Below are positions 7,560 through 45,613 of a stretch of DNA of 64,000 nucleotides, one piece after another. Made by a program: the position numbers and the translations under genes. This DNA is from an archaeon (GTDB lineage Archaea > Nanobdellota > Nanobdellia > Pacearchaeales > GW2011-AR1), in contig JAIORZ010000002.1 in the NCBI GenBank assembly GCA_021107855.1, positions 181,425 to 245,424 of the forward strand, written 5' to 3'. The stretch's first letter is position 1. Every line of letters starts with the position of its first letter. The notes below the pieces were generated by a model, which saw nothing but the letters and a program-made list of their open reading frames with translations, was not told the DNA's origin and made no database searches.

Positions 7560-9263
7560 ATGAAAACTTTAAACCTGCACTGCGACTATATCAAATTCAA
7601 AGCCCTAAAAAAAGCCCTAAAATCAATCGACGAAATCGCACCAAACCAAAATCTGGAAGGGCAAGCAAAAGAATGTCTAGTCGTCCTAGCAGCCATAGAA
7701 AAATCCGACACAAAAGAATCAATACCACAACTAGTAGAATCAATCAAAAAAATAGCAACCGACGTAAAATCCGAAACAATCGTTCTCTACCCATACGCAC
7801 ATCTATCAAGCAACCTGGGCTCCCCAGAAACAGCAATAAAAATTTTAGACGAAACAGCAAAACAATTAGCGCCATTAAAAGTAATCAAAGCCCCATTCGG
7901 CTACTACAAAACCTTCGAACTAAAAGTCAAAGGACATCCACTCTCCGAACTTTCCAGAGAAATTATTATTAAAAGCGATGAAGAAACGGAAGAAGAACTA
8001 ACAGATAAAGAGAGAAAAAGATTGTTACATCAAATTCAAAAATCAAAGCTAGACACTTCAAAAATTGAAAAAAACGACCATAGAATTATAGGAAGAAAAA
8101 TGGATTTGTGGAGTTTCAACAATTCAGCTCCAGGAATGGTTTTCTGGCACGCTAAAGGTCTTTACCTTAAAGACAAACTAATTGAATACTGGAGAGAACT
8201 CCATCGAGCAAATGGATATTCAGAAATTTCAACCCCACAAATTTTAGACAAAAAATTATGGGAAATATCAGGACACTGGTCAAAGTTCAAAGAAAATATG
8301 TTCACCACAAATTATGAAAGACGAGACTTCGCAGTCAAACCAATGAACTGCCCAGGAGGAATGTTAGTCTATAAAACATCTCCAAAATCATATCGCGACT
8401 TACCATTAAGAGTCGGCGAATTAGGCTGGGTGCATCGAATAGAATTATCAGGAGTTTTAGGCGGACTAATGAGAGTGATTCAATTTGTCCAAGACGATGC
8501 TCATATTTATTGCACAGAAAAATCGTTCAAAGACGAAATCGGGAAAATCATCGACCTCACAAAAGAATTATTCTCCACATTCAACATAGAAATAGACCAC
8601 GTCGAACTCTCAACCCGCCCCGAAAAACGAATTGGCTCAGAAAAAGTTTGGGACATGTCAGAAAAGGCACTAGAGGAAGTTCTAAAAGACAAAAAAATGA
8701 AATACATAATCAATAAAGGCGACGGAGCATTCTACGGACCTAAAATAGACTTCCACATAAAAGACTCTCTAAAAAGAACATGGCAATGTTCAACAATCCA
8801 ACTAGACATGGCACTCCCAAAAAGATTCGAATTAAAATATACAACAGAAGACGGAAGCACAAAACAACCAATTATGATACATCGAACAATTTACGGAAGC
8901 CTAGAAAGATTCTTAGGAATTTACACCGAACATGTCAACGGAGAATTCCCCTTATGGATATCCCCCAATCAAATCAAAGTAATGACCATGAACGACGAAG
9001 TCAAAGATTATGCCAACAAAATCCACCAAGAATTATTTGACGCAGGTTTCGAATCCGAACTTAATGATAAGAATGAATCAATAGGCAAAAAGGCAAGAGA
9101 AGCACAAATCCAAAAATTCAACTACCTCGTCACAATCGGAGAAAAAGAAAAAACCAAAAACAAAATAGCAATTCGAACAAGAGACTCAAAAGAAATAACC
9201 ACAATGACACTGAAGGAATTCAAAGAAAAAATCAAAAACGAAATCTCTCAGAAAGGATTATAA
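7560..9263 (+). CDS. thrS: threonyl-tRNA synthetase (archaeal type)
   Basis: MNCPGGMLVYK, RVGELGWVHRIELSGVLGGLMRVIQFVQDDAHI, class II motifs, N-terminal archaeal editing-like domain. Confidence 0.95.
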   Translation: MKTLNLHCDYIKFKALKKALKSIDEIAPNQNLEGQAKECLVVLAAIEKSDTKESIPQLVESIKKIATDVKSETIVLYPYAHLSSNLGSPETAIKILDETAKQLAPLKVIKAPFGYYKTFELKVKGHPLSELSREIIIKSDEETEEELTDKERKRLLHQIQKSKLDTSKIEKNDHRIIGRKMDLWSFNNSAPGMVFWHAKGLYLKDKLIEYWRELHRANGYSEISTPQILDKKLWEISGHWSKFKENMFTTNYERRDFAVKPMNCPGGMLVYKTSPKSYRDLPLRVGELGWVHRIELSGVLGGLMRVIQFVQDDAHIYCTEKSFKDEIGKIIDLTKELFSTFNIEIDHVELSTRPEKRIGSEKVWDMSEKALEEVLKDKKMKYIINKGDGAFYGPKIDFHIKDSLKRTWQCSTIQLDMALPKRFELKYTTEDGSTKQPIMIHRTIYGSLERFLGIYTEHVNGEFPLWISPNQIKVMTMNDEVKDYANKIHQELFDAGFESELNDKNESIGKKAREAQIQKFNYLVTIGEKEKTKNKIAIRTRDSKEITTMTLKEFKEKIKNEISQKGL

Positions 9264-9285
9264 ACAATATTCCCATCCATTTCCC

Positions 9286-9573: not shown

Positions 9574-10092
9574 ATGAAAGTCCAAAACCTACTCCAAGAA
9601 CTCAAAGAAAAACCAGAATACAAAACTTTCCAAACCCAAAATCCAGACGCACTCTTTTCGGCTGCCTTTCTAATTTTAGATTTAGAGTATGGCACAAACC
9701 AAATCCAACTAGACTTCTATCTACCAAAACAAAACGAAATCGCCGCATTCGAGTTTCCGTTCAAAGCCCCAAAAATTCATGATAACATAATCTCAGTTTC
9801 TTCCACAGGAGAAACAACCCCAGCAAAACCAAAACCAATGTCAAAGCAAACCACAAAAATAAAAATCGACATCGACAAGCTAGAATCAAAATGCAAAGAA
9901 CTAATCAAAGAAAACGAATCCTCAATAATCCCAACAAAAATCATAGCAATTCTAAAAGACGACATCTGGAATCTAACTTGCATGGACAACGCGCTAGGAA
10001 TTGTAAGGATAAAGATTAATGCGGTTTCAGGGGAGACTCAAGATTTTAATAAAGGCTCTCTTATGGATTTTATGGGGATTAAGAAAAAATGA
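9574..10092 (+). CDS. hypothetical protein
   Basis: ORF track; 4-nt overlap with next gene. Confidence 0.55.
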   Translation: MKVQNLLQELKEKPEYKTFQTQNPDALFSAAFLILDLEYGTNQIQLDFYLPKQNEIAAFEFPFKAPKIHDNIISVSSTGETTPAKPKPMSKQTTKIKIDIDKLESKCKELIKENESSIIPTKIIAILKDDIWNLTCMDNALGIVRIKINAVSGETQDFNKGSLMDFMGIKKK

Positions 10093-10484
10093 AATTTAGT
10101 AAAAAAGGTCTTCCTATTAAAAAACTCGAAACACTTCTAAAAATTTGGCAAAAAAGGCTTTTGTTAGATAACTGGAATTTATCAATAGAGATTATTGAAT
10201 TTAAGCGAAAAGATTACAAGCAAAGTGGCGATATTAAAGTTTTCCCAAGAAAGAAAAAAGCCATTGTTTTATTAACTAAAGACCCATTTAGAAACGAAGA
10301 AAGCGTCCTTGTTCATGAACTAATGCACCTTATTTTATGGGATTACGATATATTTAATGAAAAATTAATATTGGGCAAATCAGAAACAAAACTCAAAGGT
10401 AGTCATGGAAAATATATGAAAAAGCTTGAGTCCACTGTAGACCACCTAACAAAAGCTTTTCTAAAAGAATACAAGACCAACTAG
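10089..10484 (+). CDS. zincin-like putative metallopeptidase
   Basis: VLVHELMHLILW (HExxH) with downstream ESTVDHLTKAF. Confidence 0.6.
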   Translation: MKFSKKGLPIKKLETLLKIWQKRLLLDNWNLSIEIIEFKRKDYKQSGDIKVFPRKKKAIVLLTKDPFRNEESVLVHELMHLILWDYDIFNEKLILGKSETKLKGSHGKYMKKLESTVDHLTKAFLKEYKTN

Positions 10485-11116
10485 TTCTTCCTCACAACAA
10501 ACCCCAAATTCTCATCCTCCCAACTCTTCAAAACCTCAAACCCGACACTCTTCAATTCCCCCCTCAACTCCTCAAGCTCATAAATATAAGTATACCTTTC
10601 ATATTTCTTCCCATCCAAAGTCCACGGCACAAACCCCTCCTTCGCCCTATTCTTCAACCTCTTCTGCCCCCTCCCCCAAACCGAAATCAACGCCTCACCC
10701 CCACTACTGGGGTCACCAGAGTCATCCTTTTTTGAGGACAAAACACGATAAACCTCCTCCAAACTCTTCCGCCTCTTCTCAGCAGAATCAACACAATGCA
10801 AAACCGCATTAAAAATAACTAAACCAAAAAACCCATCATCATAAGGAATACTATCAGCACTCCCTTTCTTAACTTCCTTAGCAATCCTTCTCCCCATAGA
10901 CAACTCAACCATCCTCTTAGAAAAATCAACACCATAAAGTTCCAACTCCTTACTATCTAAAAAATTCCTCCCGCTCCCGCATCCCAAGTCCAAAACTCGC
11001 CCCTTCTTGCCTTTCAAAAAATCCAAAATATACGAAACATCATAATGCCTAAACTCCTTCCACGGCCTAGCAATCGCATCCCAAACCTTTTCCTGCTCCA
11101 TAATCCCATCACACAT
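10481..11116 (-). CDS. class I SAM methyltransferase, Trm9/ALKBH8-like
   Basis: EKVWDAIARPWKEFRHYDVSYILDFLKGKKGRVLDLGCGSGRN; adjacency to elp3. Confidence 0.7.
   Translation of the reverse strand: MCDGIMEQEKVWDAIARPWKEFRHYDVSYILDFLKGKKGRVLDLGCGSGRNFLDSKELELYGVDFSKRMVELSMGRRIAKEVKKGSADSIPYDDGFFGLVIFNAVLHCVDSAEKRRKSLEEVYRVLSSKKDDSGDPSSGGEALISVWGRGQKRLKNRAKEGFVPWTLDGKKYERYTYIYELEELRGELKSVGFEVLKSWEDENLGFVVRKN
10709..10742 (-). repeat. dispersed hairpin element, copy 2 (sense inside Trm9-like gene)
   Basis: minus strand: TTTTGTCCTCAAAAAAGGATGACTCTGGTGACCCC. Confidence 0.85.
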
Positions 11117-30466: not shown

Positions 30467-30782
30467 AAAGAGTGGGACATAGGCCACGTTCTGTCAAACC
30501 CGGAATCTAATTCCGACGATTTGCGCTAACATCTGACTAAGCCTGTACAAACCGAATTAACGGCTTCCAGTTGCATCAGGCAGGGTGCTCGTTCCACTCT
30601 GAAATTAATCAGCTCGTCTCTATACCAGAGCCACGCCTCACGACGTCATACTTTAGTACATACCTTTGTTCCAAACAAAATAAATTGCAAGGAGATGCGC
30701 GGACCTTCCTCAACATCCCAGAAATCATTTTACATTTCCGCTGCCCTTTAGACAAGGATATCGACAGTTAGCTGTCCCACTC
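30467..30782 (-). ncRNA. rnpB: RNase P RNA
   Basis: minus-strand GAGGAAGGTCCGCGC (CR-I) and ACAGAACGTGGCCTATGTCCCACTC pairing with 5' GAGTGGGACAGC. Confidence 0.88.
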
Positions 30783-30899: not shown

Positions 30900-31094
30900 A
30901 TGAATTTTAAATTAACAAAATGGAAAACAATAATCTCCACACTTTTAGGAATACTTTCATCATCACTTTTTACTAGAATATTTTGTATGGGTATGGAGGG
31001 CTGCGGATTTATTAGAATTTTTGATATGGCTACATATATAGTATTTTTTATAATATTCGTGTTAGTATACAGCATTTGGAGCTCAATTCAATAA
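30900..31094 (+). CDS. small two-TM membrane protein (paralogue of 34140..34325)
   Basis: MNFKLTKWKTIISTLLGI...IYSIWSSIQ-type ends shared with the second copy. Confidence 0.5.
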   Translation: MNFKLTKWKTIISTLLGILSSSLFTRIFCMGMEGCGFIRIFDMATYIVFFIIFVLVYSIWSSIQ

Positions 31095-31130: not shown

Positions 31131-31167
31131 ATCCAAACCACCTTAACAACACATGCAAAAACAAACC
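31131..31167 (+). repeat. 37-bp direct repeat copy 1 (truncated duplicate of pcm 5' end)
   Basis: atccaaaccaccttaacaacacatgcaaaaacaaacc identical to 34415..34451. Confidence 0.97.
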
Positions 31168-31179
31168 ACAATTATCTAC

Positions 31180-31365
31180 CTATTTCTTTTTAACACTACA
31201 CCGCGAAGGACGAACCTTAGCCTTTTCAGTTTTTCTAGAATCTGCCTCTTCTAAATTTTTCATTTTTGAAAGAGTAGCTTTAATAGTTAAACAAGAAAGT
31301 TCGCATTGCTCTAAAAGTTCTTTTGTAGTTAAATATTTCTTAACTTTTTTCTTAGGATTTCCCAT
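31180..31365 (-). CDS. small basic hypothetical protein
   Basis: ORF track only. Confidence 0.35.
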   Translation of the reverse strand: MGNPKKKVKKYLTTKELLEQCELSCLTIKATLSKMKNLEEADSRKTEKAKVRPSRCSVKKK

Positions 31366-31430
31366 TTTGTGTCACGAACAAGTTAATAAACTTACTCACG
31401 ACATTGTTCGTCTAATAAAATAAATAAGCA

Positions 31431-31449
31431 TTATAGCGACATAGGTCGT
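31431..31449. promoter_or_regulatory. candidate operator copy 1 (CGAC-ATAG-GTCG)
   Basis: ttatagcgacataggtcgt; inverted copy at 32144..32162. Confidence 0.5.
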
Positions 31450-31490
31450 GTTTTAACAAGTTTTTTAAATGAATCTTCTTTTTTAGTTAC

Positions 31491-32141
31491 ATGTGGGTAG
31501 CAAAAATAAAAATAGAAGGAGCTCAAAGCCTCATCGGAAACGCAACAAAAAAATCAGGAGCTCACGGTTCCGGATACCCCATATCTTCTCGGCAAGTAGA
31601 AGACGGAATAAACATACACTTCATGGGATTACTAAAAGGAACAGAAGAACAAAAAGATAATTTTATAACTGAAATAAAAAAACATCCCCGAACCGTCCAC
31701 ATTGAAAGAGAAGGAGATTGCATAATATGTCAAATCATAGAACCAATAACAAAGGGACCCGGCTTTGATCCACATCTAATTCATGTAGAACCCATGACAA
31801 TAGAAAAAGACGGAACCGAATACTGGACCATCGGAAGCTGGAAGAAAAAATATCTGATAAACTTCATTGAATCTATTGAAGGAACACACGGTATAGAGCT
31901 TCTAAAAATAAGTAATAAGAAAATAACAAATTTTTCTTTTGTCAGCCCGAATCCTCCGATAAGTCCAAAACAAAAAATGGCAATAGAGCTCGCAATCGAA
32001 GAAGGGTATTATAAATATCCGAGAAAAATAGAATTAAGAAAGTTAGCCAAAATCGCAGGAATCGCTTACTCGACCTATCAAGCACATTTAAGAAAAGCCG
32101 AAATGAAACTCATACCTTTCTCACTTGAAAAGACAATTTAA
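31491..32141 (+). CDS. HTH_10 (bacterioopsin-activator-like) transcriptional regulator
   Basis: ISPKQKMAIELAIEEGYYKYPRKIELRKLAKIAGIAYSTYQAHLRKAEMKLI. Confidence 0.85.
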   Translation: MWVAKIKIEGAQSLIGNATKKSGAHGSGYPISSRQVEDGINIHFMGLLKGTEEQKDNFITEIKKHPRTVHIEREGDCIICQIIEPITKGPGFDPHLIHVEPMTIEKDGTEYWTIGSWKKKYLINFIESIEGTHGIELLKISNKKITNFSFVSPNPPISPKQKMAIELAIEEGYYKYPRKIELRKLAKIAGIAYSTYQAHLRKAEMKLIPFSLEKTI

Positions 32142-32143
32142 CG

Positions 32144-32162
32144 ACGACCTATATCGCTATAA
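32144..32162. promoter_or_regulatory. candidate operator copy 2 overlapping TATA-like box
   Basis: acgacctatatcgctataa, reverse complement matches 31431..31449 at 18/19. Confidence 0.5.
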
Positions 32163-32190
32163 AGTTCTTCTATAATTCTATTCAAAATAT

Positions 32191-32682
32191 ATGAAGATGG
32201 TGAGGCAAGAAATTCTAGACACAATGCTGCAACCATACTATCCCGAATGCAGATATCTAAAAGAATCAGAATTGAATTTCCCAACAATGCACTCAAAATT
32301 CTCAATCTCCAAAACTTTTTACGGAGCACAATCAGGGCATTTCAACGCGACCGAAATGATGATGTGCTATAATCAAATGGCATATACTTTTATTGCAGCA
32401 TCAGTTGAAGAAGGACTAATAGAATCGGCAGGGACAATCCCTCTAGAAAAATTCATAGAATATCAAATGGCAAACTGTTTAATGGCACGCATTGGAAACA
32501 TAAAATTTAAATCTCAAATAAACCCTAAAAATTTTTATGGGGAAATAACTTTAAAAAAATATCCCACAAGGGGAAAAAATCTTTTCGCCACAACCGACTT
32601 CTCTTTTTATGACGACAACGGAGGATTCGCAAATGGAGATGCCCTCCTAGTGTTAGCCCTTAAGAATTGCCACTCAAAATAA
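32191..32682 (+). CDS. hotdog-fold thioesterase, FcoT-like
   Basis: FSISKTFYGAQSGHFNATEMMMCYNQMAYTFIAASVEEGL ... INPKNFYGEI. Confidence 0.6.
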   Translation: MKMVRQEILDTMLQPYYPECRYLKESELNFPTMHSKFSISKTFYGAQSGHFNATEMMMCYNQMAYTFIAASVEEGLIESAGTIPLEKFIEYQMANCLMARIGNIKFKSQINPKNFYGEITLKKYPTRGKNLFATTDFSFYDDNGGFANGDALLVLALKNCHSK

Positions 32683-32720
32683 TCTAGTAGAATATTTAAA
32701 GCTAAAACACATATAACAGA

Positions 32721-33404
32721 ATGGCACCAGAAATAGTTTTTATCCACGGCGACCTACAAAACCACACAGTATTTAATAACCTTAAAGAATTATTTGAAAA
32801 AAAAGGACATAGATGTTTTTCTTTCGATTTACCAGGGCACGGGAGCGAAAAAATAATTAAAAAACTACCAGAATTTCTAGAAGAAAAAATAACATCCAAG
32901 AAACCAATTATCGTCGCACATTCGTCTGGAGCAATGATAGCATCAAAATATTTTGAAAGAACAAAAAACTCTTCAGGTCTAATTTTAATAAGCCCTCTTC
33001 TAATAAATCCTCTGCATTTTATAAAACAAGATCCAAAAACACTAAAAAATTTCTATAAAAATCTTTCAAGAACAAAATTTTTAGGACAAAAATTAGTGAA
33101 TTATTTAGAGATACCAGAAGAAAAAATAAAAGAAATCGGATTAAAAACAACCTCTCCCGAGGGATTTGAAAACAATTTTAATTTTTATACAAACACAGAA
33201 TTGGATTTTAATTTTGAAATACCAGTCTTATTTATAGCGCCAGAAAAAGACGAAAGTGTCCCCTTAAATTTATACAAAGAAATGGCAAACAAAATAAAAA
33301 ACTTAACATTCAAAATAATAAAATCGGGACATAATCCATTAATAACAAATCCCAAAGAAATAGAAGAAATAATAATAAAAAACTACAATCTATTCACAGA
33401 ATAA
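32721..33404 (+). CDS. alpha/beta-hydrolase
   Basis: IVFIHGDLQNHTVF, FDLPGHGSEK, IVAHSSGAMIAS nucleophile elbow, IAPEKDESVP, KSGHNPLITNP. Confidence 0.85.
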   Translation: MAPEIVFIHGDLQNHTVFNNLKELFEKKGHRCFSFDLPGHGSEKIIKKLPEFLEEKITSKKPIIVAHSSGAMIASKYFERTKNSSGLILISPLLINPLHFIKQDPKTLKNFYKNLSRTKFLGQKLVNYLEIPEEKIKEIGLKTTSPEGFENNFNFYTNTELDFNFEIPVLFIAPEKDESVPLNLYKEMANKIKNLTFKIIKSGHNPLITNPKEIEEIIIKNYNLFTE

Positions 33405-34024
33405 ACAACATGCGGAAATCTCTTATATAGCAAGCCAAATTTAAACCCTGCAGATTCAAAAATTCTACGATGTTCTTCAAGCTCCATAGGATTATCATTC
33501 TCCGAAATCTCCGTAGCCATCTTCTCCAAATCTTCTGGACCAAAACTACTTCTAGCAAAATCTAAAGAACTCTCCAACAAATCCCCCTTCGTCTTCCCCT
33601 CAAAAAGAGCCAAATCAAAATTGACCAATCCTCGACCAGCCCGAGCAATTTTTACCAACTTATCTTCCCTCTCGTCACTACCAAGATGATGAAACATTAA
33701 AGAACTAATAAAATATTCTACATCCGGAAGAGGCGAGGAAAAAGCATCTCTACATTCCAAAATCGCATCCGGAAGCTTCCTTTGCGCAATCTCCAAAAGT
33801 TCAGGCTGAAGGTCTCTCCCATAAATAACAACCCTAGGAATTCGCTCTCTAACAGCAAAACTAAAATTCCCAGTTCCAATACCCAAATCACAAACGGACT
33901 TAACATTCTTAGGAATCGCAGAAGCTCCAAGATTTAAAGCCAAATAATAATTCGGACAAACTTTTGGAATTATAATATCATAATTAGAATAAAACTCATC
34001 TTTATTTGTCATAACATAATTCAA
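33383..34024 (-). CDS. class I SAM-dependent methyltransferase
   Basis: VCDLGIGTGNFSFAVRERIP...GRDLQPELLEIAQRKLPDA...SLMFHHLG. Confidence 0.8.
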   Translation of the reverse strand: MNYVMTNKDEFYSNYDIIIPKVCPNYYLALNLGASAIPKNVKSVCDLGIGTGNFSFAVRERIPRVVIYGRDLQPELLEIAQRKLPDAILECRDAFSSPLPDVEYFISSLMFHHLGSDEREDKLVKIARAGRGLVNFDLALFEGKTKGDLLESSLDFARSSFGPEDLEKMATEISENDNPMELEEHRRIFESAGFKFGLLYKRFPHVVYSVNRL

Positions 34025-34139
34025 ATAAGAAAACTAATAAAATTTTACACGGCATAGGTCCGAAATATCAATAAAAAGAACAGCATAAAAAATTACTTCG
34101 TGTTTTCATATCAAGCATTAGCCTCTAAGGATTACAAGA

Positions 34140-34325
34140 TTAATTTTTCTTTTGTATTAAACTCCAAACAACATAAATTATTGTTGAAACAACAACCCAA
34201 AATATCAAATGAGCAAAGGTAAATCCAGCTCCTCCAAAAAGAGTTCTTAACACTAGTGCAATTGTGATAAAAAATCCAACTAAAATACTCAAAATCATTT
34301 TAAGCGAAGTTAACTTGAAATTCAT
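34140..34325 (-). CDS. small two-TM membrane protein (paralogue of 30900..31094); ORF opens further upstream at 34448
   Basis: MNFKLTSLKMILSILVGF...IYVVWSLIQKKN. Confidence 0.5.
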   Translation of the reverse strand: MNFKLTSLKMILSILVGFFITIALVLRTLFGGAGFTFAHLIFWVVVSTIIYVVWSLIQKKN

Positions 34326-34414
34326 AAATACTCTTGTGATATAAACTTTAAAAAACTTGTTATCAACTCTATTCTCTTTTGTTCTTTTGATAGAAACTAT
34401 CCCAAATAATATAT

Positions 34415-34451
34415 ATCCAAACCACCTTAACAACACATGCAAAAACAAACC
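34415..34451 (+). repeat. 37-bp direct repeat copy 2 (intact pcm 5' end)
   Basis: identical to 31131..31167. Confidence 0.97.
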
Positions 34452-35033
34452 CTAATCACCTACCTAAAAACCGAAGGCTTCCCAAAAAAAATAACCAACG
34501 CATTCTCCAAAGTCAAAAGAGAACTCTTCATCCCAAAAGAACACAAAGAACTCGCCTACGAAAATCGACCCCTCCCAATCGGAAACAACCAAACAATATC
34601 CCAACCATACACAATCGCATTCATGCTAAACCTCCTCGACTTAAAAGACAATCAAAAAATCCTAGAAGTCGGAAGCGGCTCCGGCTACGTCCTAGCCCTA
34701 ATAAACGCAATCTCAAAAAACAGCAACATCCACGGAATAGAAATAATAAAAGAACTAGCCACCTCCTCAAAAAAAATCCTAACCAAAAACAAAAACATCA
34801 AAATCACCCAAGCCGACGGGAACAAAGGCCTAAAACAAAACTCCCCCTTCGACAGAATCCTAGTCAGTGCAAGCGCAAGAGAAATTCCCCAAAAACTTCT
34901 GGAACAATTAAAAATCAAAGGGGTAATGGTGTGTGTCGTGGGGAATTCAATTGTAAAGATAAAAAAGGAAAAGAATCAGATTAGGAAGATAGAGTATCTT
35001 GGGTTTTCTTTTGTGCCGTTGGTGGAAAAGTAA
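34437..35033 (+). CDS. pcm: protein-L-isoaspartate O-methyltransferase
   Basis: YENRPLPIGNNQTISQPYTIAFMLNLLDL, ILEVGSGSGYVLAL. Confidence 0.93.
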   Translation: MQKQTLITYLKTEGFPKKITNAFSKVKRELFIPKEHKELAYENRPLPIGNNQTISQPYTIAFMLNLLDLKDNQKILEVGSGSGYVLALINAISKNSNIHGIEIIKELATSSKKILTKNKNIKITQADGNKGLKQNSPFDRILVSASAREIPQKLLEQLKIKGVMVCVVGNSIVKIKKEKNQIRKIEYLGFSFVPLVEK

Positions 35034-35073: not shown

Positions 35074-35475
35074 ATGCAAGAGAGAGACCTTTTCGGCATT
35101 CTATATATAATATCTAAGTTTGACAAAATTCATTTTAGAAAAAGATTACAAAAAATAGTTTGTATTAGTAAAATGGACCAAGAGATAGGGTATCCATTCA
35201 CATTTAATTTTAGAAGATATCTATACGGACCATATTCTTTTGATTTTAAGGAGAGCTTAGATGAATTGATTAAGTTAAATATAATAAAAGAAGAGCTAGG
35301 TGAAGAAGGGCAATATTCATATTTTTTGACAGCAACAGGCAAAGCAAGGTTGACAATATTAAAAAGAAGATATTTACTAGAAAAGGGGATACTAACTAAA
35401 TTTTTCAAAAAATATCCCAAAAGTACTTCAGTAAAAGACCTTGTAGTGTCTTCAAAAAAGGTTTTTGGGTGGTAG
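35074..35475 (+). CDS. YwgA/Panacea-like winged-helix domain protein
   Basis: GILYIISKFDKIHFRKRLQKIVCIS...YLYGPYSFDFKESLDELIKLNIIKEE. Confidence 0.55.
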   Translation: MQERDLFGILYIISKFDKIHFRKRLQKIVCISKMDQEIGYPFTFNFRRYLYGPYSFDFKESLDELIKLNIIKEELGEEGQYSYFLTATGKARLTILKRRYLLEKGILTKFFKKYPKSTSVKDLVVSSKKVFGW

Positions 35476-35484
35476 GTTTATTAT

Positions 35485-36399
35485 ATGTCAAAAGATTTTT
35501 GGATTGATAATAAAAAAATTTGGGGGAGACCTCATCCAGCGAAATCGAATGATTTTCTAAAAGTGGGAGAACTTATGTTTAAATCAGTGAAATCAGCAGA
35601 GATACTTCTAAGAGAGTACCATAGATGCTTCCCTCGTCCTCCACCTACTCCAAAAGAAGAAGAAAAAGAAGCAAGAGCAAATATAAAAAATGGAGATTTG
35701 CGCGGGATAGATCCTTTCGAGAGGCAAATTTTTATAGACCCACAAGATTATAACAAGATTACATTAAAATTATTGGGGGGTATGGGAAGCCCATTTACCA
35801 AATTACTTTCTTCGATAGGATATAATTCAATTGGATTTTTTGGGGAACCTTCATTATTTAATAAATTCAAAAATTATGAAGTTGTAAAAAAATTAAAACA
35901 AAAAATAATATTTTGTAAAGATTGTGGAGAGGCAGGAATATCAATAGTAAAAAATGACATTGACCTACCATGCGGGCACGAGTCTAAAAGAGACCTTAGT
36001 CTTTATAACATAAAAAATAAAGACGTCTTATATACATGGAAACACAATCCGGCTTGTTTTCTCGAGGATATTTGCTATTACATTCTAAAGGATTTAGGTT
36101 ATAATCCATACAGAAACGTTGATCTCTATAAAGCCCCAATAGGGAATACAAAAAAACGAATAACGGAATTTGATTTCATATTAAGTAAAGAAAAGATTGT
36201 TATATTATGTTCGGTAGATCCTACTCAAAGAAGAGAAAAAAGTCAAGTAAAAAAAGCAAAAGACTTAGGATATAAAATTATTTTTGTTAGTATAGGAAAA
36301 AAAGTTTCTTTCACATGTGATAAAAAAGTATGCGTAGAGATATCTGAAATAAAATCAATTAGAGAAAAAATAAAAGATGCAATATCTGAATTGAATTAA
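35485..36399 (+). CDS. hypothetical protein with CxxC...CxH zinc-binding motif and PD-(D/E)XK-like C-terminal domain
   Basis: FCKDCGE...LPCGHES; RITEFDFILSKEKIVILCSVDPTQRREKSQVKKAKDLGYKIIFVS. Confidence 0.5.
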   Translation: MSKDFWIDNKKIWGRPHPAKSNDFLKVGELMFKSVKSAEILLREYHRCFPRPPPTPKEEEKEARANIKNGDLRGIDPFERQIFIDPQDYNKITLKLLGGMGSPFTKLLSSIGYNSIGFFGEPSLFNKFKNYEVVKKLKQKIIFCKDCGEAGISIVKNDIDLPCGHESKRDLSLYNIKNKDVLYTWKHNPACFLEDICYYILKDLGYNPYRNVDLYKAPIGNTKKRITEFDFILSKEKIVILCSVDPTQRREKSQVKKAKDLGYKIIFVSIGKKVSFTCDKKVCVEISEIKSIREKIKDAISELN

Positions 36400-36457
36400 T
36401 TGTTTCATAAATTTTAAAACTCCCGTCCCAATAAAAACTTTTCAAAATCAATGAAAA

Positions 36458-36478
36458 GAACAGTATAAAAAATCACTA
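36458..36478 (-). repeat. 23S rRNA processing-stem 3' arm
   Basis: gaacagtataaaaaatcacta; perfect 21-nt inverted repeat of 39379..39399. Confidence 0.85.
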
Positions 36479-36544
36479 ACCTTTCTCTCTCAATCATTCT
36501 CTCTTAATCAAACAAAAGATAAAATTTGGCTTTTAGTAAATGCA

Positions 36545-39320
36545 TGCTGAACAAATCGCAAAAGCTCAATGCGTACACACCATTTCTATCAACGCAGTCT
36601 TTTACTGCGGCCTATATTGTCTCGTTTTGCGGACTGCTTCGTGCTTAGATGCTTTCAGCACTTATCAGTATACAGCGTAGCTGCCCAGCCTGCTCATAAC
36701 AACTGGTAGACCAGTGGCTGCGAACCCACGTTCCTCTCGTACTGGAGGGTCCTTCCACTCAGACAATAACACATCTAGTAGATATCATACAAACTGTCTC
36801 ACGACGTTCTTAACCCAGCTAACGATCCCTTTTAATGCGTGAACTCCGACACCCTTGGATGCTTGTGCACATCCAGGATAGGAAGAGCCGACAGCGATGT
36901 AGCAAACCGCCCCGTCAATGTGAACTATCGGGGGCGACAACCCTGTTATCCTTGAGGTACCTTTTCTGTCATCATCTTGATCCATTAAAAATCATAGATG
37001 GTTCGTTAAGCCCAACTTTCATTCCTGCGCTTCTTGCTGTTCAAAGCACAGTCAGACAAGCTTTTGCCTTTACACTCTACTCCAGATTTCCGACCTGGAT
37101 GAGCTTGTCTTTGGGCCCCACAGATATTCTTTCTGCGGGGTGCCGCCCCAGCCAAACTGCCCGCCAATTGCTGTCTCCAACTTCTCAGATTAGCGGATCC
37201 ATTAAAATTGGGTAGTGTTACACTTTTGCTCCACCTTGACCGAAATCAAGGCTTCAACGCTCCTACCTACTCTGGGCAATCATAATAAATTCGCAACAAC
37301 AGGTTGCAGTAAAGGTCTACAAGGTCTTCGCTTCCCACTAGACGACACCGGCCTTTTCACCGGTAAATGATTTCGGAGGGTGCAAGTTAGGGACAGTGAC
37401 AACATCGTTAAGCCGTTCATGCACGTCGCAATTCATACGACAAGGCATTACGCTACCTTAAGAGCCTCATAGTTAGGCCCGCCGTTTGATGGGCTTTCGA
37501 CCGGTTGAAACCGGCGTTTAGGCACCACCACTGGGCAGACTTCACCGAGCATACTCGTCCTTTCGGAATTGCGCTCAGCTACGTTTTTGGTAAACAGTCG
37601 TGCCATCCTTGTTACTGAGATCTACTCCCCCACACAATGAATCATGCAAAAGAATAGACATCCCTTCTACCGAAGATACGGGACTATTTATGCCGAATTC
37701 CCTTAACTTGATTAACCCTTCACGTCTTAGCCTTCTCAGCTAGGGTACCAGTGCCAGTTCTTGGTACTGCTCGACTCTTTCTATTCTCTAAACTTTTCGC
37801 TGGCTCTCGGACTCAGCGGATAAGGAAAGATTTGCAAACTTCTCTTCATTACAATCCACAAGCTTCTCTTTTCCGATACCTTTCGGCATTCCACCTATCC
37901 CAAAGCGATTTAGAGACTTAACAAAAAAGTCAAGTACAGGAATATTAACCTGTTCTCCGTCGTCGTACTCAGTTAAGATACGACTTAGGTGCAGACTAAC
38001 CCTTGGCTAATTGATAGTGCCAAGGAAACCGTACCCTTTCGACGTCTTTCGGTTCTCAGAAAGATCAGATCCTACTCACACCAGGATTCGCATTACTAGT
38101 CGCTCCAGCATCGCTTACGCGAAACCTTCTGCGCAACTAATACGCCTGCTTACCATGACATCCATTTCCGGATGTATCCGAAGTATCGGCAATCTACTTT
38201 AGCCCCGTCCATTTTAGGGGCCATAATTCTCAATAGGTGAGCTGTTACGCTTTCTTTAAAGGATGGCGGCTTCTAGACCTACCTCCCCACTGTCTCAGAA
38301 TTATGACTCCCTTCGTTACACTTAGTAGATATTTTGGGGCCTTAACTTCGGGCTCCCTTGTTCGGGTTTCGTGACAGCATCTTACATGCTGCCGCTGTTT
38401 CCGGTATTACGCAGTTTATAGGTTCTGAGTTAGAAAAATTTCCGTAGCAAAGTTGCCCTGCAAAATTTATCTGTACTTTACCCCATAAACAAACTATACC
38501 GAACTATACCTAGGCATATTTCAGCAGGAACCAGCTATCGCCAGATTAGAGTGGCTTTTCACCCCTATTCCCAAATCATCCGAGTACATGCACGTAACAA
38601 CGGTTCGGACCTCCATTTCTCTTTCAAAAAACTTCGTCCTGTTCAGGAATAGATCATCTGGCTTCAGGTCTTACCCTTGTGACTAACGCGCTTTCACACT
38701 CGCTTTCGCTTCGCCTTCCTTAATTAAGCTCGCCACAAAAATAAACTCCCTGGCTCGTTCTTCAAAACGCACGCTACAACCCCTTAAGGCCGTAGCTATT
38801 TTGTAACTATTAGATTTCAAGTCTTTTAACTCACTTGTGAGTGTACTTTTCAGCTTTCCCTCGCGGTACTCGTTCGCTATCGGACTTAAATTACTATTTA
38901 GGGTTAGGAGTTAATTCTCCCATATTCAGACGACTAATCCAAGTCGCCCTACTCTTTTAGCACCTGATATATTTTCTTCGTTTACGGGACTATCACCCTC
39001 TAAAGTGCTGCTTTCCAGCAGACTTCAACTCAAAAACTTAACCATTATGTGCCACCACATCTCTTACTCGCTTTCACGAGAGATTCAGCTTGCCCTGTTC
39101 CCTTTTCGCTCGCTGCTAATAGGGGAATCATTATTATTTTCTTTTCCTGCCGGTACTAAGATGTTTCAATTCCCGGCGTTGCTCTTCCTTTCGGAATAAA
39201 CACGTTTCGCATTCGGAAATCTCGGGGTCAAAGGTTGCATGCACCTCACCCGAGCATATCGCAGCTTGCCACGTCCTTCATCAAAATTTAAACCAAGCTA
39301 TCCATCTAATAGTTTCATAG
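36545..39320 (-). rRNA. 23S ribosomal RNA (ends approximate)
   Basis: conserved LSU blocks on minus strand incl. GTTCGTCGTGAGACAG-like peptidyl-transferase region, 5' GATGGATAGCTTGG. Confidence 0.95.
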
Positions 39321-39378
39321 AATCTATCTTTCATTTGATCAATCAAATCATTTATTTAGTTTTTACACTAAATGTCTA

Positions 39379-44524: not shown

Positions 44525-45613
44525 TTAATTACTAACCAACTTTTTTATCTTATTCACCAAATCCGGTCTGACATAATAATGCAACGTCATCTCAAAATTC
44601 TCCTCCCAATTCCCACTCTTCTTCGAAAATTTCTTATGCCCCAACTTCCTAGCCAAACCCAAACAAAATTTCCGGGCGTCTCCCCTTCTCCTTTTCAAAA
44701 ATTTCTCCACCTCACACGTAGCAAAATACGACCTAACAATATGCGGATAAAATCTCTTCCCACAATATTTCTCAAACGTCTTCTCAAAATCAGTATCTTT
44801 CAAAACCCCACCATTCTTTCCAAGAAAAACAAAATTACCCATCTTCCTCTTCTTCAAAATCCTCCTCAACTCTCCAACAACCTTCCCCGAAAAATTCATA
44901 ACAATATTCTGTGGCACACCATCCTTCCCAACAAAATCAAATCTCACACTATTCCCAACAATCTTCAAATCTCTCTTCTTCAGCGTCGTCAATCCCTTAT
45001 GTTTATTCTTTTTATAATAAATCTCACTCCCCACCCTCATCCGCGTCTTTAACAAAACCAACATCGGCAAAACCATATTATCTTCACCCAATGCCCCCAT
45101 TAAATTCCGTTGCAATTTTCCCAAGCATTTCCCAAACTCATCAACCCGACGATACTTCCTCGCCGTAGAAATTCTCACCTTATCAACATCATAAATATAA
45201 CTCAAACTCCCACCTAAATTCTCAAAAATAACATCCCAATGGGAACACGACTTTTCATCATGAACCCTCAATCTACGCGCAAAAAGCGGAAACGCCTTCC
45301 CTAACTTAGTCCCATCCGGCAAAATATCAATCCTCCCTCCAACAACCTTCCCATCACAAAACCCACCTTTCAAAAACTTCCCATCACGAATCAACTTCAA
45401 CGTCCCATGTTTCTTAAAAAGCTTAGCAACACTAACAGCGTCGTCAAATTTAACATTAGACTTCTTACAAGAATCACCAGAAATCTCAACGACAGCCAAA
45501 TCCGAAGCTCGAATCCGATAGTACCTCATCCAAAGAACCCGCCGACAAACTATATAAAATTTTGCAACCGACCCACTCCTAAACTTTTTAAATATCCTAT
45601 TCCAACTAATCAC
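44525..45613 (-). CDS. type IB DNA topoisomerase (poxvirus/bacterial-like TopIB)
   Basis: RMRVGSEIYYKKNKHKGLTTLKKRDLKIVGNSVRFDFVGKDGV; HIVRSYFAT; LGHKKF; TLHYYVRPDLV. Confidence 0.75.
   Translation of the reverse strand: MISWNRIFKKFRSGSVAKFYIVCRRVLWMRYYRIRASDLAVVEISGDSCKKSNVKFDDAVSVAKLFKKHGTLKLIRDGKFLKGGFCDGKVVGGRIDILPDGTKLGKAFPLFARRLRVHDEKSCSHWDVIFENLGGSLSYIYDVDKVRISTARKYRRVDEFGKCLGKLQRNLMGALGEDNMVLPMLVLLKTRMRVGSEIYYKKNKHKGLTTLKKRDLKIVGNSVRFDFVGKDGVPQNIVMNFSGKVVGELRRILKKRKMGNFVFLGKNGGVLKDTDFEKTFEKYCGKRFYPHIVRSYFATCEVEKFLKRRRGDARKFCLGLARKLGHKKFSKKSGNWEENFEMTLHYYVRPDLVNKIKKLVSN

Follow-up and report, generated by a model that had tools for sequence, protein, structure and literature searches.

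The block of genes bracketed by two copies of the pcm 5' end is accessory cargo within an insertion hotspot, situated between the RNase P RNA and 23S rRNA genes, whose content varies among relatives. We consider it somewhat probable that the block is accessory DNA joined at this recombination hotspot, and that the pcm repeat is the scar of the joining. The window analysed here is a stretch of 64,000 nucleotides from a probable Pacearchaeota genome of 936 kb (14 contigs, 85% complete). The features discussed below are collected in Table 1.

Results

The two copies of the pcm repeat, r1 on the left and r2 on the right, are identical at 37 of 37 positions (31131-31167 and 34415-34451), and 100 shuffles gave an expectation of zero. 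The ungapped extension of the repeat covers 52 nt with 48 matches (92%; 31131-31182 and 34415-34466). All four mismatches fall within the last 15 nt (chance about 0.005, by counting). Further on the similarity ends abruptly, and gapped extension adds nothing. The start codon of pcm (34437) lies inside r2. The frame in r1, MQKQTTIIYLFLFNTTPRRTNLSLFSFSRICLF followed by a stop codon, has 33 codons and is pcm-like in the first ten codons only. A search of the whole genome allowing up to three mismatches found exactly two copies of the 37-mer. These observations agree with a sequence-only reading of the same DNA, which had described an identical 37-bp repeat with some 15 nt of imperfect similarity, the real pcm start in the right copy and a dead fragment in the left one, and had proposed the genome-wide search. 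The gene names given in that reading (HTH_10 regulator, FcoT-like thioesterase, alpha/beta hydrolase, methyltransferase and pcm) were recovered by profile matches as well.

Table 1. Features of the RNase P RNA-23S interval (window positions) and copies of a dispersed leader element (contig positions)
Feature	Position	Strand	Evidence or remark
Archaeal RNase P RNA, left hotspot border	30472..30780	-	RF00373 E=8e-17, 65 bits
Small membrane ORF left of r1	30900..31094	+	paralogue of the 34140-34325 ORF
r1, left direct-repeat copy	31131..31182	+	22 nt of upstream region and dead pcm 5' fragment
61-aa ORF abutting r1	31180..31365	-	without family match
Inverted candidate operator copy TTATAGCGACATAGGTCGT upstream of HTH_10	31431..31449	+	18/19 to 32162-32144
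HTH_10 regulator of the module	31491..32141	+	PF04967 3.7e-17; homologues adjacent to FcoT at 4 loci
Operator/TATA-like motif CGACCTATATCGCTATAAAGTT upstream of FcoT	32145..32166	+	conserved in 4 genera
FcoT-like hotdog thioesterase	32191..32682	+	PF10862 3.2e-33; profile vs Rv0098 structure 2pfc 1.2e-25
Alpha/beta hydrolase of the module	32721..33404	+	PF00561 2.1e-18; homologues in L086, L088
SAM-dependent methyltransferase of the module	33383..34024	-	PF13649 1.7e-9; homologues in L086, L088
Operator-like site upstream of the methyltransferase, CGGCATAGGTCCG on the + strand	34050..34062	-	read from the sequence
T1, second copy of the 23S 3' processing-stem sequence	34064..34097	+	30/34 to T2
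Intron-tail-like remnant between small membrane ORF and T1	34098..34139	-	similarity to G014 LSU intron past the ORF stop
Small membrane ORF (61 aa)	34140..34325	-	homologue within a 23S insert of congener G014
r2, right direct-repeat copy	34415..34466	+	upstream region plus initial codons of intact pcm
pcm, protein-L-isoaspartate O-methyltransferase (PCMT)	34437..35033	+	PF01135 7.2e-51; accessory within the genus
Accessory ORF between pcm and 23S	35074..35475	+	phrog_14939 1.2e-6
Accessory ORF	35485..36399	+	no family; 0 matches in 15 congeners
T2, native 23S 3' flank, processing-stem arm	36444..36477	+	conserved after 23S in congeners
23S rRNA, right hotspot border	36513..39329	-	RF02540
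Leader element copies, contig C2	39575-39689, 42271-42364, 43505-43619
Leader element copies, contig C1	19803-19889, 33357-33472, 49793-49876, 205119-205178, 220768-220827, 383772-383825

The congeners keep a stretch composed of the CysRS gene, a pilin-like gene, tRNA-Phe and RNase P RNA, which is followed by variable genes and then by 23S rRNA. The interval between RNase P RNA and 23S rRNA is nearly empty in G015 (about 330 bp with one small ORF and no pcm) and has 5.7 kb in the window, pcm included. Clear homologues of pcm were found in two of the 15 congeners (G006 and G007), in both cases at other loci, and none of the 15 carries pcm at the hotspot; the completeness of these genomes is 69-87%, so that absences are approximate, and the hotspot locus itself is assembled in several of them. 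Since pcm is patchy in the genus, it is no resident target. FcoT occurs in none of the 15 congeners and in nine of 180 genomes of the family, the genome studied here counted. In the nearest comparison, the CysRS proteins of the congeners are at most 73% identical to that of the window.

Several other features of this region may be mentioned. The RNase P RNA match is below the Rfam gathering threshold of 84 bits, yet the region is conserved across the genus. Copies of the last 18 nt of tRNA-Phe are situated about 105 nt past the tRNA in G008 (L107, 5287-5304 and 5392-5409) and in G002 (L074, 3026-3043 and 3132-3149), which is the kind of trace that tRNA-targeted integration leaves. No such 3'-end copy was found near the block in the window, though it is present in these two congeners, and tRNA-Phe was rejected as the attachment site. 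A topoisomerase IB-like protein is encoded close to the rRNA operon (44525-45613, minus strand); it was considered as an integrase and ruled out, as its Pfam match is Topoisom_I (PF01028, 3e-13).

A second direct repeat, overlooked by the sequence-only reading, interleaves with the pcm repeat. A 22-nt core of its right copy, T2, is perfectly complementary to a site before the 5' end of 23S rRNA, which is the layout of a 23S processing stem. In a scan of the 390-kb contig, only T1, T2 and the 5' stem partner reached at least 18 of 21 matches. Extra copies of the stem motif were observed in the hotspots of five congeners (G005, G008, G009, G011 and G014). The order of the repeats in the window is r1 (pcm 5' end), T1 (copy of the 23S 3' stem), r2 (pcm 5' end) and T2 (native stem). 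This order suggests a duplication or circle-type recombination, because either a tandem duplication or the insertion of a circle by single crossover yields it.

Paralogous small membrane ORFs adjoin both copies of the pcm repeat, in opposite orientations. The closest relative of the right one is inside a 568-nt insert in the 23S rRNA gene of G014. This insert has a weak group I signature (RF00028, E=3e-4, below gathering). The similarity of the ORF region to the insert runs beyond the stop codon, with a weak match to the intron tail, so that what had been taken for the right end of a cassette is probably a leftover of 23S-associated DNA. The window itself gave no significant match to group I introns.

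The G014 locus (L109, contig C5) has two 23S inserts of note: the one at 9919-10486 combines the group I-like signature with the small membrane ORF, and the one at 8503-9271 contains an ORF that reads, by eye, like a LAGLIDADG endonuclease. A divergent second match (72%) to the 23S 3' region is found on a 9-kb contig of the genome studied here (G000, contig C5, 5268-5603); it is possibly contamination or an rRNA remnant.

No recombinase or integrase match was found among the ORFs of the block (31180-34325), as the sequence-only reading had noted for the cassette. Three matches to tyrosine recombinases (PF00589) occur elsewhere in the genome, the nearest about 39 kb away. A search for transposons and IS elements gave no transposase match and no strong terminal inverted repeat at the block ends. 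The direct repeat of a gene end at both borders is what is expected of an integrative element; an attachment sequence shared with sibling repeat-bracketed blocks was not found. Both features of a variable segment at a hotspot are present, namely accessory cargo in a variable interval and border direct repeats without a common core. Other origins were considered and rejected. The 28-mer core and relatives of the regulator are absent from viral contigs, the phrog matches are weak and generic, and no structural phage family was found in the block. The block has no plasmid match. PADLOC gave only weak matches, and a defence island was dismissed as well.

Isolated repeats 0.3-10 kb apart were sought on all contigs of the genome longer than 100 kb (902 kb); 29 direct and three inverted ones were found. 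Isolated edge-type repeats over seven scanned contigs numbered 37 direct and three inverted. On contig C2, an exact 35-nt direct repeat (386891 and 388069) surrounds a 1.2-kb block with two unknown genes (386891-388103; L146, 1891-3103). The repeat is the 3' end, with the stop codon, of an 89-aa gene; in the congeners compared in search of an empty site, this host gene is not conserved. Elsewhere in the same genome, a 71-nt gene-start repeat with a dead left copy surrounds an ORF with an HNH-like motif (by eye). The closest parallel to the pcm case among the congeners is a 77-nt direct repeat (98.7% identity) over the start of a 746-aa gene in G008 (L229, contig C2, 172333-173292), which brackets one 225-aa ORF. 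The repeats of all these blocks are unrelated in sequence, and no common core was found among them. Their recurrence, in small numbers, is more readily explained by generic recombination than by a dedicated integrase.

A strict filter for repeats at gene ends retained three cases in the genome studied here, three in G008, one in G045 and none in G003 and G015; it missed the case of the 89-aa gene. The chance for a random 45-bp stretch to touch a gene end in a compact genome is 7.6%. Given this rate, the strict cases are too few, and a gene-end cassette mechanism was rejected as a general claim.

Two further repeat families were observed in the genome. A 39-nt intergenic direct repeat (95% identity) with TGCACAA arms has copies 6.4 kb apart on contig C1 (78614-78652 and 85067-85105) and could bound another inserted segment. 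A dispersed leader element of 54-116 nt is present in nine copies, several of which end at start codons (ftsZ, L11 and others). It folds slightly better than shuffled sequences (z -1.8), and no match was found in the searched contigs of G008, G003 and G015.

Adjacent homologues of the HTH_10 and FcoT genes were found in four genomes (G126, G108, G085 and G135) from three other genera of Pacearchaeota. All four module genes, hydrolase and methyltransferase included, are present in G085 and G135, which belong to one genus. The gene order in the other genera is different, and no comparable repeat was found around the module there. A motif of 22 bp lies ahead of FcoT in each of the four genera (score 109, compared with 79 for the best of 200 shuffles). 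The operator-like site of the methyltransferase stops where T1 starts and resembles the site before the L088 methyltransferase. The motif before FcoT, together with the inverted and related sites before HTH_10 and the methyltransferase, suggests that the HTH_10 regulator may control the module via these putative operators. The module retains a regulator and operator-like sites of its own, so that transfer probably left it in working order, as a small regulon with an acyl or carboxyl metabolite as its predicted target. Weak matches of the methyltransferase to BioC and of the hydrolase to BioH, far under the cut-offs of these families, lead us to guess that the two might perform a methyl-ester step on an acyl metabolite. 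The HTH_10 regulator has no significant relative in PDB.

By sequence, the cargo FcoT belongs to the same hotdog family as mycobacterial FcoT Rv0098 (2pfc) and the ScoD-type enzymes. However, it scores below the equivalog cut-off (101.4 bits with NF049938, ScoD (2E)-enoyl-ACP glycyltransferase, where 250 is required), has no isonitrile or NRPS genes nearby, and is accompanied by an HTH_10 partner.

Discussion

The favoured explanation assumes one duplication-type event that would have copied a segment beginning at the pcm start and reaching into the 23S region. This could have been an unequal crossover of sister chromosomes or the integration of a DNA circle by single crossover in short homology; the repeats are too short to separate the two. 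The HTH_10/FcoT/hydrolase/methyltransferase module would then have taken the place of the pcm body and its neighbours in one of the copies. Alternatively, the incoming DNA may have carried the module instead, in which case the pcm body would never have been present in that copy. In the other copy pcm would have been kept intact. At least one of the DNA molecules involved would have carried the module. A crossover between two pcm alleles with slight differences would account for the clustering of the four mismatches in the last 15 nt of the repeat. Some points weigh against this explanation. One copy would have to have lost the 23S exons and the body of pcm, unless the incoming molecule already had this structure. 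T1 has only 34 nt, and the match to the intron tail is weak. A repeat that touches a gene end is no great surprise in a compact genome, and most genomes have more local direct repeats than inverted ones. We infer the mechanism of block formation from genomes none of which is close enough to provide an empty site or to show the state before the event.

One possibility is that the native pcm region was spontaneously duplicated in tandem, without any incoming DNA, in a hotspot that already had the module, and that one copy then decayed. The interleaved order of the repeats is the outcome of a plain tandem duplication, and the large excess of direct over inverted repeats is what local duplication predicts. 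However, we regard this as unlikely: the perfect 37-bp core means that the duplication would probably be recent, yet nearly all of the intervening duplicated stretch would need to have been lost, and the differences between the copies are clustered rather than scattered.

It is rather improbable that the block is a non-autonomous integrative element with the pcm 5' end as its attachment site, mobilised by an integrase encoded elsewhere and restoring pcm with its own new 5' end. The anatomy does fit, as there is an identical 37-bp core with an imperfect extension, an intact gene on one side and a dead fragment on the other, and the genome has the three tyrosine-recombinase matches. This reading is disfavoured because the block has no integrase, pcm is missing from most congeners, the repeats of the sibling blocks are unrelated and T1/T2 is left unexplained. 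In addition, the module is found at other loci without the pcm repeat, the core is not in viral contigs and the block is not in plasmids. The sequence-only reading had proposed either site-specific integration or recombination-mediated insertion; the latter is supported, with accessory cargo at a hotspot, and the former is not supported. Finally, although the genome disperses 5' leaders and promoter repeats are common to several neighbouring gene pairs, it is very improbable that r1 is a functional dispersed leader or promoter, or the gene of a 33-aa peptide, rather than a scar, since it contains coding sequence, has two copies only and is followed directly by no gene start on the same strand, and HTH_10 is preceded by an upstream region of its own, which includes an operator-like site.

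A broader model may be formulated, although we consider it highly doubtful. Pacearchaeota would gain genes without an integrase: an incoming circle or fragment would recombine with the end of a gene over 35-100 nt and restore that gene, and each gain would thus leave a dead piece of the gene end on the opposite side. The flank of the rRNA genes would be a preferred entry, and the HTH_10/FcoT module one self-regulated cargo.

Little is understood of how very small archaea, which are probably host-dependent, gain genes in the absence of obvious mobile elements. At the locus described here the scar can be read, and the hotspot, mapped to the interval from RNase P RNA to 23S rRNA, is common to the whole genus, so that gene gain can be followed there once closer genomes are available. 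The cargo resembles a small regulon, and the operator-like motif across four genera provides a concrete prediction for an archaeal HTH_10 regulator.

Some integrative elements, such as SXT at prfC, attach at the 5' end of a protein gene. The block is similar to these in having the gene 5' end at both borders and the intact gene on one side. It differs in the lack of an integrase, the accessory target, the unrelated repeats at sibling blocks and the second repeat pair. In Streptococcus pneumoniae, transformation is known to drive tandem duplication: a short stretch common to donor and host mispairs, and a direct duplication results (PMC3784515). In that case IS copies serve as the repeats and the duplication studied spans about 107 kb, whereas the archaeal locus retains short remnants only. 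In bacterial species, 10-18% of small variable segments have flanking direct repeats, ascribed to illegitimate recombination (PMC2884548). By analogy, these bacterial processes may act in this archaeon as well. Like such segments, the block is small and accessory, has repeats at its ends and no mobility genes, and its content differs from genome to genome. However, its repeat has 37-52 nt, compared with mostly less than 30 bp in the bacterial segments, one copy is a dead piece of the gene next to it, and a second repeat pair, of rRNA origin, interleaves with the first.
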